Made by a program: the position numbers and the translations under genes | Shown here: positions 266-59,544 of the stretch, one piece after another | How positions within the stretch are numbered: the first letter of the stretch is position 1 | Layout: each line of letters opens with the position of its first letter | Source: Candidatus Sphingomonas phytovorans | Lineage (GTDB): Bacteria > Pseudomonadota > Alphaproteobacteria > Sphingomonadales > Sphingomonadaceae | Length of the DNA: 64,000 nucleotides | Assembly: GCA_029202385.1 (NCBI GenBank) | Contig: CP119314.1 | Location: 2,916,501 to 2,980,500 of the forward strand | Direction of reading: 5' to 3' | Notes under the pieces: model-generated | What the model was told of the DNA's origin: nothing | Database searches by the model: none | Seen by the model: the letters and a program-made list of their open reading frames with translations, nothing else

Positions 266-652
266 ATGAAAAGACTTGCCTTGCTGATCCTGCCGGCGCT
301 GCTGCTCGCCGGATGCGGTACCACGGGGGTAGCGCCACGCCCTGTCCGCGCGGCGCCGGTGCCGATTCCCGTCCCCATCCCCGGCGGCGCGGCCGGGCTC
401 GACCGGGTGCTCGGCCAGACCGGCAACACGCTGGTCGGCCTGTTCGGCCAGCCCGCCGCCGACGTCCGCGAAGGCAGCGCGCGGAAGCTCCAGTTCGGCA
501 ACGCCACCTGCGTGCTCGACGCCTATCTCTACCCCAAGGGTCGCGGCGAGCCGGTCGTCACCTATGTCGACGCACGGCAGACCAACGGCAGTCCGATCGA
601 CCGGGCAAGCTGCGTCGGCGCGCTGAGCCTGGGACGGACGGGCGGGCGGTAA
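266..652 (+). CDS. small lipoprotein of unknown function
   Basis: This 128-residue protein begins with a short basic start, a hydrophobic stretch and the lipobox LLAGC (Cys at about residue 16), so it should be lipidated and sit in the cell envelope. A Pro/Val-rich linker follows. The folded part ends with a region rich in conserved-looking Gly and aromatic residues and a Cys pair (ATCVL and ASCVG). The fold resembles small envelope lipoproteins common in sphingomonads. It follows the EI24-like gene by 13 bases and may be co-transcribed. I do not recognise a specific function. Confidence 0.75.
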   Translation: MKRLALLILPALLLAGCGTTGVAPRPVRAAPVPIPVPIPGGAAGLDRVLGQTGNTLVGLFGQPAADVREGSARKLQFGNATCVLDAYLYPKGRGEPVVTYVDARQTNGSPIDRASCVGALSLGRTGGR

Positions 653-654
653 CA

Positions 655-700
655 AAAAGCCCCTCCCCTTCAGGGGAGGGGTTGGGGTGGGGGACGCCGA
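655..700 (+). repeat. left 46-bp inverted repeat of the DUF559 element
   Basis: Its reverse complement recurs at 1066-1111 with one mismatch (45 of 46). The outer half is a hairpin, CCCCTCCCC with loop TTCA-type and GGGGAGGGG. The inner half is a G-rich arm running up to the GTG start at 701. Read outward (minus strand), the hairpin is followed by a T-run, so it could act as an intrinsic terminator. It begins 2 bases after the stop of the preceding lipoprotein gene. Confidence 0.9.
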
Positions 701-1096
701 GTGGTTTCAGAAGCTGAACTTTTGAAGCGCGCGCACGAGATGCGCCGCAATCCCACGGAGCCTGAAAAGCGTTTGTGGCGACACCTCTCCAACGGACAAC
801 TTGGAGCGTACAAGTTCCGGCGCCAGCATGTAGTAGCCGACGCCTACGCGATCATGGATTTCTTTTGCCCGGCCATCGGATTGGGTATTGAAGTCGATGG
901 CGATACCCACAATGCTGATGAAGATATGAGGCGAGATAGTCGCTTGAAACATCGCGGCTTCACAATCCTGCGCTTCAGCAATGCGGACGTTATGACAAAC
1001 ATCGAGGGGGTCGTTGAAACGATCTTCGGCGCTGCGCAATCACTCCCCTCTCGCTGGTCTGGCAGTCGGCGTCCCCCACCCCAACCCCTCCCCTAA
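701..1096 (+). CDS. DUF559 endonuclease-like protein inside an inverted-repeat element
   Basis: The 131-residue protein has the hallmarks of DUF559, a Vsr/restriction-endonuclease-like family: the RRNPTEPEKRLW start, FRRQH, DFFCP, EVDGDTH and the FTILRF strand followed by an NIEGV helix. The acidic and His residues match the usual catalytic set, though activity is unproven. The GTG start at 701 is the first base after the left repeat. An internal ATG at 740 is an alternative but would lose the usual N-terminal helix. The last ten or so residues (Pro-rich) and the TAA stop at 1094-1096 are encoded within the right repeat, the stop falling in its hairpin loop. Base use is slightly less GC-rich than in neighbours. 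It probably belongs to the repeat element rather than to the flanking operons. Confidence 0.85.
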   Translation: MVSEAELLKRAHEMRRNPTEPEKRLWRHLSNGQLGAYKFRRQHVVADAYAIMDFFCPAIGLGIEVDGDTHNADEDMRRDSRLKHRGFTILRFSNADVMTNIEGVVETIFGAAQSLPSRWSGSRRPPPQPLP

Positions 1097-1111
1097 AGGG
1101 GAGGGGCTTTT
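1066..1111 (-). repeat. right 46-bp inverted repeat of the DUF559 element
   Basis: This is the inverted copy of 655-700 (45 of 46 identical). It contains the hairpin CCCCTCCCC-TAA-AGGGGAGGGG followed by CTTTTC on the plus strand, a plausible Rho-independent terminator for the DUF559 gene. The last base is also the first base of the queG stop codon triplet, so the element fits exactly between two convergent genes. No target-site duplication is evident. Confidence 0.9.
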
Positions 1112-2238
1112 CAGACGCCCCATTCCGCCTTCACCATCTCATCCGTCTCACCCGCGACCCGCGCCTCCCGTTCCAGTTCGAACCGCCCGCGATCCAGCCG
1201 CCCGAGCGCCCAGATCGCCGCCCCCCGCACCACCGGCGATTCGTCGCCCAGCAGAGCGGCAACCGGTTCCACCAGCGTATCCGCGCCGCTGTTCCCCGCC
1301 GCGATCAGGCAGTTCCGCATCATTCGGTTCCGCCCGATCCGCTTGATCGGCGATCCGGCGAACACCTCCCGAAACCCGGCATCGTCAAGCGCCAGCAGAT
1401 CAGCCAGGGCAGGCGCCGCCAGCTCCGCCCGCGGCGCGAAGGCCCGGTTCGCGCTCGCCGACGCGGCGAACTTGTTCCACGGGCACACCGCCAGGCAATC
1501 GTCGCAGCCATAGATTCGGTTGCCCATCGCGGCGCGGAATTCGTGTGGGATCGGGCCGGCATTCTCGATCGTCAGGTACGAGATGCACCGCCGCGCATCG
1601 AGCCGGTACGGCGCCGGAAACGCATCGGTGGGGCACGCCGCCTGGCACGCATCGCACGATCCGCAGGTATCGCGGCCCGGGACGTCCGGCGTCAGGTCGA
1701 GCGTGGTGTAGATCGCCCCAAGGAACAGCCAGCTCCCATGATCCCGGCTGACCAGGTTGGTATGCTTGCCCTGCCAGCCAAGCCCGGCAGCTTCCGACAG
1801 CGGCTTCTCCATCACCGGCGCGGTATCGACGAACACCTTCACATCGGCGCCCCGCACCTCCGCGACCAGCCACCGCGCCAGCGCCTTCAGCGCACGCTTC
1901 ATCACGTCGTGATAGTCGGCGCCCTGGGCATAGACCGAGATGCGCGCCCGCTCCCCCTCCCCCGCCAGCGCGAGCGGATCGACGGCCGGCGCATAGCTCA
2001 TGCCCAGCGAGATCACGCTGCGCACCTCGGGCCACAGGCCGGCCGGGCTTTCGCGATGATGCGCGCGCGATTCCATCCAGATCATGTCGCCATGCATGCC
2101 CTCGCCGAGCCACTGGTGCAGCCGCTCTGCGGTGCGCGGCGCGGCGTCGGCGCGTGCGATCCCGCAGGCGGCGAACCCAAGTTCAACCGCCTTCGCCTTC
2201 AGCCGTTCGTTCAGGGCGATGTCGTCGCTCACCGGCAC
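1111..2238 (-). CDS. queG: epoxyqueuosine reductase
   Basis: QueG performs the last step of queuosine synthesis, reducing epoxyqueuosine to queuosine in tRNA wobble position 34; it uses cobalamin and two 4Fe-4S clusters in the cytoplasm. The 375 residues show the cobalamin-domain acid in [10 protein letters not shown] (Asp at about 138), the first ferredoxin-like motif C192-xx-C195-xx-C198-xxx-C202-P, and the second at C245, C248 and C252 ([13 protein letters not shown]). A HEAT-like C-terminal stretch ([24 protein letters not shown], about 325-350) is typical of the family. Length is normal. It is convergent with the DUF559 element and divergent from the ABC exporter genes. Confidence 0.95.
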
Positions 2239-52481: not shown

Positions 52482-52806
52482 CCCGATCTCCCATATGCGC
52501 CCCGACATATCCCAGATACCCAGGCACGCGAGTGCTAAAAGACACACCCGATAATGACAGGTTTCAGCTTTCCGGTCTCTGACATCAAATGACCGCACCG
52601 TTCGCCCGATATTCGGATCGAACGCGCAGGCCTCCGCGTTCGGCTGGTCCTATTCTGTCGCGCACGCTTGCTGGTATCGCTCGCCTTGGCCTGTCGATCA
52701 CCTGTGGAACAAGCGCTGGAGTGGCTCGACAACAAGAACAAGCTCTTCACCTTCTGATCGCTCAAGCCCCTCCCCGAAACGGGAGGGGTGATGTAATGGG
52801 CCGCCC
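52482..52806. other. gene-poor stretch with possible relic and hairpin
   Basis: No complete gene is visible. A plus-strand frame ending at the TGA 52755-52757 finishes with a natural-looking tail (VEQALEWLDNKNKLFTF) but has no start and poor sequence before it, so it may be a gene relic. The hairpin at 52767-52788 follows. Confidence 0.35.
52767..52788. repeat. single CCCCTCCC hairpin
   Basis: CCCCTCCC-CGAAAC-GGGAGGGG is a perfect 8-bp stem related to the arms of the DUF559 element. Only one hairpin is present, 18 bases before the next gene start, so it may affect translation of that gene or end upstream transcription. Confidence 0.6.
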
Positions 52807-58864: not shown

Positions 58865-58878
58865 TCTTCTCTTCTGTC

Positions 58879-58986
58879 TCCCCTCCCGCTCGCGGGAGGG
58901 ACTGGGGGTGGGCTCGCGCTCACCACCTGCGTTGGCGTTAATGGAGGTCGGGTGCCCACCCCCGGCCCCTCCCGCAAGCAGGAGGG
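58879..58986. repeat. two-hairpin REP-like element inside the hslVU unit
   Basis: Hairpins CCTCCCGC-TC-GCGGGAGG (58881-58898) and CCCCTCCCGCAAGCAGGAGGGG (58965-58986) flank inner inverted arms CTGGGGGTGGGC and GCCCACCCCCGG. This is the DUF559-element plan, with a 35-40-base non-coding centre. It sits between hslV and hslU, where transcription from hslV must pass. Confidence 0.85.
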
Positions 58987-58989
58987 GAG

Positions 58990-59544
58990 TTAAGAAGCGC
59001 TGTCGAGGCCTTCCACGGTCAGCCGGTCATTGGTGTACACGCAGACTTCAGCCGCGATCGCCATCGCCTTGCGGCAGATCTTCTCGGCATCCTCCTCGTA
59101 ATCGACCAGCGCCCTGGCGGCGGCGAGGGCATAATTGCCGCCCGACCCAATCGCGGCGATTCCGGCCTCCGGCTCAAGCACGTCGCCATTGCCGGTGAGG
59201 ATCAGCGTCACCTCCTTGTCGGCGACGATCATCATCGCCTCCAGGTTGCGGAGATATTTGTCGGTGCGCCAGTCCTTCGCCAGTTCGACCGCCGCGCGCA
59301 GCAGCTGTCCATGATGCTGCTCGAGCTTTCGCTCGAGCCGTTCGAACAGGGTGAAGGCATCAGCCGTCGCGCCGGCGAAGCCGCCGATCACCGACCCGTC
59401 ACCGAGGCGGCGGACCTTTTTCGCATTCGGTTTCATGACGGTCTGGCCCTGGGTCACCTGGCCGTCTCCGGCGACGATGACTCGTCCATTCTTGCGCACG
59501 GAGAGAATTGTCGTGCCGTGCCACGTTGTGTCGTTCCCGCTCAT
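58990..59544 (-). CDS. hslV: ATP-dependent protease peptidase subunit HslV
   Basis: HslV is the threonine peptidase of the HslUV proteasome-like complex. The 184-residue protein carries a short propeptide ([10 protein letters not shown]) and the mature N-terminal Thr in [10 protein letters not shown], then [13 protein letters not shown] and [15 protein letters not shown]. Alphaproteobacterial HslV often keeps such a propeptide. The ATG at 59544 is preferred over one at 59553. It is the first gene of hslVU. Confidence 0.96.

Follow-up and report, generated by a model that had tools for sequence, protein, structure and literature searches.

A small gene in the window (the whole stretch of 64,000 nucleotides that was analysed) lies exactly between two inverted repeats, which raises the question of what kind of unit the gene and its repeats form and what the encoded enzyme does with them. 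The cassette is 457 bp long and consists of a left REP of type T1 (655..703, + strand), a DUF559 (PF04480) gene (701..1096, + strand; 131 aa, GTG start, TAA stop) and a right T1 REP in inverted copy (1063..1111, - strand). The two 49-nt arms are 96% identical in inverted orientation. Each runs from a C-rich stem through a 4-nt loop into a G-rich stem, followed by a second inner G-rich block TTGGGGTGGGGG. On the left, the hairpin occupies 659-681 (stem CCCCTCCCC/GGGGAGGGG, loop TTCA) and the inward G-rich tail TTGGGGTGGGGGACGCCGA occupies 682-700; on the right, the hairpin loop TAAA lies at 1094-1097 and the outward T-run at 1108-1111. The left arm has a predicted DNA folding energy of -13.6 kcal/mol.

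The geometry given in the original prediction is borne out at this locus. The 45 matches in 46 positions claimed for 655-700 versus 1066-1111 are correct, because just one base, in the loop, differs; the GTG ORF starts at 701, directly after the repeat that ends at 700; the TAA stop (1094-1096) lies in the loop of the right hairpin; and both hairpins carry outward T-runs (GGGGCTTTT). The cassette fits between two convergent gene ends, namely that of an upstream ORF labelled by eye as small lipoprotein-like (266..652, + strand; stop at 652) and that of a downstream convergent ORF which we take to be queG-like (1111..2238, - strand; stop at 1111). These two ORFs are the flanks of the site, and the latter served for the empty-site series described below. 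A stop within the loop was rejected as a general feature: in 53 T1 rows, which include some loci twice, the stop lies inside the right hairpin in just 12, the ORF runs past that hairpin in 32, and the hairpin pattern is unmatched in 9.

The framed protein matches the Pfam DUF559 profile with 98.3 bits (gathering cut-off 20.6) over 719..1030 (+ strand; profile search, converted from genome coordinates). It is a Vsr/I-Bth0305I-like PD-(D/E)XK nuclease in which the Vsr-like fold and the conserved acidic and His residues are present, and this supports the earlier description of a Vsr-like nuclease. A Pfam search of the framed ORF found no transposase domain, and a padloc search gave only one weak match (19.9 bits). 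DUF559 is rare on plasmids (36/72,556 records) and on phages (2/50,697), and among viral contigs two pattern matches were found, neither of them a relative. No recent duplicate DUF559 copies were seen within one genome; an equal-score pair in G029 shares no DNA. The window gene and its homologue in Sphingomonas sp. QA11 have a dN/dS of 0.10, and across eight DUF559 pairs the ratio is 0.03-0.12 with dS from 0.25 to >1. The DUF559 gene is under purifying selection.

Is the framing peculiar to this locus? Each locus received the score of the strongest inverted repeat found between its two 400-bp flanks (+1/-2, gaps -4/-1) and was called framed above 16, the maximum of the mock genes. The window locus scores 43, compared with at most 16 for 184 mock genes in the same window. 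DUF559 is present in 93/101 Sphingomonas genomes, and 85 of 99 loci in this genus score >16 (92/99 score >13), although the set is non-random, as 60 loci were taken from the best-scoring rows of a genus-wide DUF559 search, and non-independent, because many of these loci, like many of the 166 considered below, represent the same site in related species. The first 37 loci scored, to which 62 were then added, had given 33 above 16. Meanwhile, the controls exceeded 16 at 0/29 RuvX loci (30 taken, one incomplete), 1/27 queG loci (30 taken, three incomplete) and 0/184 mock genes; a cross-pair control (median 12, up to 269) was discarded as contaminated by same-site loci. Five of the 14 loci at <=16 come from one 23-locus site cluster whose other members keep repeats. 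The window's own genome has nine PF04480 matches, and hairpin repeats stand on both sides in seven of the eight loci inspected by eye; the low scorers are L005, with only 16 despite repeats visible by eye, and L008, a partial domain with 9. The original prediction had held that homologues usually lacking such repeats would speak against an element; for the window locus this did not occur.

With 300-bp flanks, and with control sets that come from the genus and the window only, 16/30 of the best-scoring loci at class level and 13/27 further loci from a phylum search score >16, including 8/16 outside the class. Escherichia coli ycjD lacks such a frame of inverted repeats (score 8). The association therefore extends beyond Alphaproteobacteria, yet it is not universal. 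Hairpins with T-runs are common between convergent genes, and the pair around this small gene could in principle be intergenic terminators placed there by chance; given the contrast between 85/99 DUF559 loci and the controls, and the congruence of REP types with the protein tree, we regard this as extremely improbable.

The DUF559-flanking arms sort into at least eight REP types, defined as patterns that were written after inspection of the arms and later adjusted, with L199 and L270 typed by hand. Where both arms could be typed, the type is the same on both sides in 74/75 loci, the odd one being L199. The eight types need 7 changes, which is the minimum, on a tree of 89 DUF559 proteins (of 112; the 11 that lack a usable pair of arms and the 12 that could not be typed were left out), compared with a mean of 58.6 after shuffling; 42/86 inner branches of this tree are open. 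Type T7, which by itself needs 4 changes, is the exception to one clade per type. T1 is the type in all 14 named homologues of the window protein, which come from Sphingomonas, Novosphingobium and further Sphingomonadales and are 52-95% identical to it; their hairpins are interrupted on the right in L113 and L124, on the left in L116 and on both sides in L118, and the right side of L121 runs into Ns. DUF559 genes and their inverted REPs are type-matched units that stay together on the protein tree. Among locus pairs from different sites, the similarity of the proteins is correlated with that of the REPs (rho 0.23; 0/999 permutations as high); the correlation is strong only among close proteins, and its modest size over all pairs counts against a cognate enzyme.

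Other palindromes (AGTGCAGCGGC..., AGCGCCGGGTG..., CATGCCCCCGGCATG...) are inserted inside the REP hairpins of L113, L124, L116, L118, L311 and L320, as if the hairpins were targets of these palindromes.

The same hairpin architecture recurs without a gene, as the original prediction had stated, in gene-free doublets of the same type that are scattered in the genomes. Among the T4 matches listed for four genomes, tail-inward pairs make up 29 of the 33 neighbours that lie within 150 bp, and the other four are gaps between opposite-sense pairs in G083; in these matches the inverted REP doublet is the repeated unit, as it is in REPINs. Doublet spacing is tight within a genome, again among the matches listed (73 bp in 8/12 in G092, 88-90 in G098). 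A gene-free T1 doublet on the window's chromosome (L164) folds as DNA with -50.5 kcal/mol (z -9.1), and an Rfam search with L164, L168 and L006 returned no family. Two gene-free forms lie in the window itself. At about 58878-58990 there is a T3-like inverted doublet with CCCTCCCGC hairpins and GGGGTGGGC tails, even though no typed DUF559 locus of this genome is T3, and at 52767-52788 there is a tail-less solo hairpin, CCCCTCCCC...GGGAGGGG, which resembles remnants in relatives.

The abundance of these repeats was compared over 101 genomes, with counts and P values that ignore shared ancestry. A generic hairpin pattern correlates with the number of DUF559 genes (rho 0.71), occurring 2-14 times in the 8 genomes without DUF559 and with a median of 86 in the 93 with it; for a reversed control pattern the median is 2.5 (100/101 values). 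After subtraction of two REP copies per gene, the median number of T1 REPs is 19.5 in 34 genomes with a T1 DUF559 (match >=107 bits) and 1 in 67 without (P 9e-8), and that of T4 REPs is 19 in 29 genomes with a T4 DUF559 and 0.5 in 72 without (P 3e-9), where T4 genes may be missed because they were called from their flanking REPs. The presence of the other type makes no difference to T1 REPs (P 0.49), and for T4 REPs by T1 DUF559 presence P is 0.08. On the whole, gene-free inverted REP doublets track the cognate DUF559. There are exceptions: a T1 DUF559 is missing from ten genomes with >=10 T1 REPs (63 REPs in G091), a T4 DUF559 was undetected in eleven with >=10 T4 REPs (G018 219, G058 132, G092 125, G087 64), and in five T1-positive genomes the only T1 REPs are the gene's own. 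Such orphan and REP-less genomes count against a cognate enzyme. Orphan REPs are compatible with gene loss, although not proof of it, because the cited passages on RAYT systems likewise report deviations that are ascribed to RAYT loss (PMC3686654). G087 has 242 generic hairpins and 64 T4 REPs, yet only two DUF559 matches (best E 3.7e-21), and may hold REPs without a partner gene or a partner that has diverged.

Between five genomes of 89-94% identity, compared over 80 kb each, REPs occur in 3 of 15 detected indels. In two of these, a solo hairpin in G093 stands against a doublet in G071 and G092, a difference that can come from deletion between two palindromes or from insertion into one. In the third, REPs in G093 (L356-L359), opposite a point about 53.2 kb into the joined G058 stretch (L346), lie between 55-bp direct duplicates of a gene 3' end including its stop codon. 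No clean target-site duplication was found in the cases compared, and this, like the small share of indels with REPs, counts against a cognate enzyme.

These few indels, together with REP families that persist in some genomes without a cognate DUF559, would suit the alternative that the doublets owe their movement to a RAYT or to some unknown transposase, with DUF559 merely riding inside some of them; gene-free doublets would then be internal-deletion derivatives, and the matching of types would reflect common descent of the unit only. We consider this unlikely. REP abundance tracks the cognate type and not the other DUF559 type in the same genomes, the low dN/dS in all eight pairs is unexpected for a passive rider, and cassettes of eight REP types are all occupied by a single gene family, at least among DUF559-anchored loci, a set in which other framed genes could be missed.

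Where do the cassettes reside? With a site defined by proteins shared on both flanks, a clustering that may split or chain sites, 166 loci fall into 54 sites, with T1 at 11 and T4 at 28; most loci without detectable arms were left out of this set, and one organism may count twice in it. At four sites the type differs between genomes (T2/T3, T5/T2, T8/T7 and T1/T4), and each of the two cassettes has its own repeats. REP type follows the protein, not the place. These observations bear on a further alternative, in which the host uses DUF559 as a Vsr-like nuclease for repair or cruciform processing and the REPs are terminators or binding or regulatory sites, stabilised, for example by mismatch-directed gene conversion, without being moved. 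The Vsr fold, the purifying selection, the terminator-like outward T-runs and the prediction, in the cited part of PMC12907096, that Caulobacter VsrA is a mismatch-repair endonuclease all agree with such a role. However, the spread of T1 over 11 and T4 over 28 sites, the different types found at one site, and the gene-free doublets, whose tight spacing makes them look like copied units, argue against it, and we hold it to be quite unlikely.

At the window's own site, relatives without the gene exist. A queG match was found in 86 genomes, and 30 queG loci were read at this site; the upstream neighbour is present in 22 and DUF559 in the window genome only. The variants include a solo hairpin (G085), a gene-free doublet (G004), doublets of other types (G051, G003), an array (G083) and no such repeat (G043). 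By eye, the remaining queG loci show no such repeat in 420 bp; three are incomplete or shifted, and some have other palindromes. Different palindromes at this intergenic site in L082 and L079, from other species, have, by eye, CGTC...CCA features like those described for CGTC REPs in the cited part of PMC3733652. The window locus is thus not fixed with no empty sites, the outcome that the original prediction had held against an element. Other DUF559 cassettes keep one site across many species (clusters of 25, 23 and 13 loci), so that rapid mobility is not the rule. Of the idea of a mobile or homing-like REP element, the self-contained unit of gene and repeats, the gene-less sites and the several chromosomal sites stand; nicking of the repeats by the protein and movement by homing are the hypothetical part.

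Sphingomonas sp. QA11, a 95%-identical relative, has the window cassette in the opposite orientation between its repeats: the alignment is reversed for the flanks (95-96%) but forward for the cassette (94%), and the breakpoints fall within the repeats. Recombination between inverted repeats or independent insertion would explain the flip. A second flip was found at another site (L199/L227); further apparent changes of orientation were artefacts of contig and strand display, and two flips remain once strands are set. Meanwhile, L001 and L004 (G000:C1:3652182 and 3656397) are two DUF559 genes in opposite orientation, and such opposite pairs keep a spacing of about 4.2-4.6 kb in G000, G018, G058, G074, G093 and G099.

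Taken together, we think it probable that the 457-bp unit is a gene-carrying member of a REPIN-like family, whose DUF559 protein would act on its own REP and so spread the doublets. From the sequence comparisons we infer cleavage and mobilisation by DUF559 as follows. The nuclease would recognise its own REP, as duplex or as extruded hairpin, and nick or cleave it; host repair or recombination would then copy the doublet to new or homologous sites, and the same processes could convert a doublet or flip a cassette. Cutting of REPs followed by repair from another doublet is proposed because it could produce arms of one type, copying of doublets and flips. Such cleavage-driven, homing-like copying seems likelier than a classical transposase reaction, given the lone Vsr-like domain.

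A four-run G-quadruplex motif occurs in 129/202 REP arms compared with 9/1983 background 50-mers. Because the inner G-rich tail is nearly a repeat of the G-rich arm of the hairpin, for example GGGGAGAGGG TT GGGAGAGGGG, the C-rich arm could pair with either of them. REP arms may form quadruplexes or triplexes, and since the motifs abound there, one may speculate that unusual DNA structure is a signal.

How does this compare with known systems? REPs are common in bacterial genomes, and to our knowledge the RAYT transposase is the only dedicated REP enzyme. Our search of the open-access literature found no paper linking DUF559 with repetitive extragenic palindromic or inverted repeats. The family includes Neisseria gonorrhoeae NGO0050 (3hrl), E. 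coli YcjD and Caulobacter VsrA. Unlike the Vsr very-short-patch repair endonuclease, DUF559 is tied to repeats, and its two immediate neighbours in the window are, by eye, not methyltransferases. Homing endonucleases of the I-Bth0305I type (3r3p), a family labelled EDxHD, are another comparison; here no intron or intein was seen, and the gene is intergenic between its own repeats. The CGTC-tagged REPs share with these repeats the bacterial class, dimeric organisation and adjoining gene 3' ends, and according to the cited part of Di Nocera 2013 (PMC3733652) they occur mostly in Alphaproteobacteria, apparently without a dedicated transposase, and have complementary A/T at the first two stem positions (almost always), a 4-5 nt loop and a CCA-like tail. 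The window-type repeats have G/C at the start of the stem and a G-rich tail, and an assignment to the CGTC REPs was rejected on these grounds.

REPINs are described, in the cited parts of Bertels & Rainey 2011 (PMC3116915) and Nunvar 2013 (PMC3686654), as REP doublets that form hairpins and go with a REP-associated tyrosine transposase. As in the REPIN-RAYT system so described, inverted REP doublets are the repeated unit (PMC3116915), a dedicated gene is flanked by its own REPs, several REP classes each have a cognate protein, abundance depends on the cognate gene, and REPs may remain after gene loss. In contrast, the REP here pairs a C-rich with a G-rich stem in its hairpin and carries a G-rich tail on the inner side, and the framed gene encodes a Vsr-like PD-(D/E)XK nuclease of the DUF559 family where a RAYT system has an HUH/Y1 tyrosine transposase; the gene was therefore rejected as a RAYT, and because the defining enzyme differs, the DUF559-REP system is REPIN-RAYT-like and not a member. 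The best reading is a REPIN/RAYT-like system in which a Vsr/homing-endonuclease-like nuclease replaces the HUH transposase as the dedicated enzyme. The match between versions of enzyme and repeat across Sphingomonas suggests that each enzyme maintains its cognate REP and propagates it through the genome. DUF559 would serve these G-rich REPs in the way in which the unrelated RAYT presumably serves GTAG REPs. We lean slightly towards a wider view as well, that many Pseudomonadota have a second, independently evolved REPIN system with type-specific Vsr-like nucleases instead of RAYTs, where a protein of about 130 residues would be the sole dedicated enzyme to copy, convert and flip doublets, and DUF559 the missing partner of a major G-rich REP class. 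If this is true, DUF559, a family of 'unknown function', gains a role as the cognate, type-specific nuclease for a large set of REPs, and REP origin becomes a testable question. DUF559-REP could prove to be a second kind of REPIN system, and persistent hairpin populations would have evolved twice, with unrelated enzymes.
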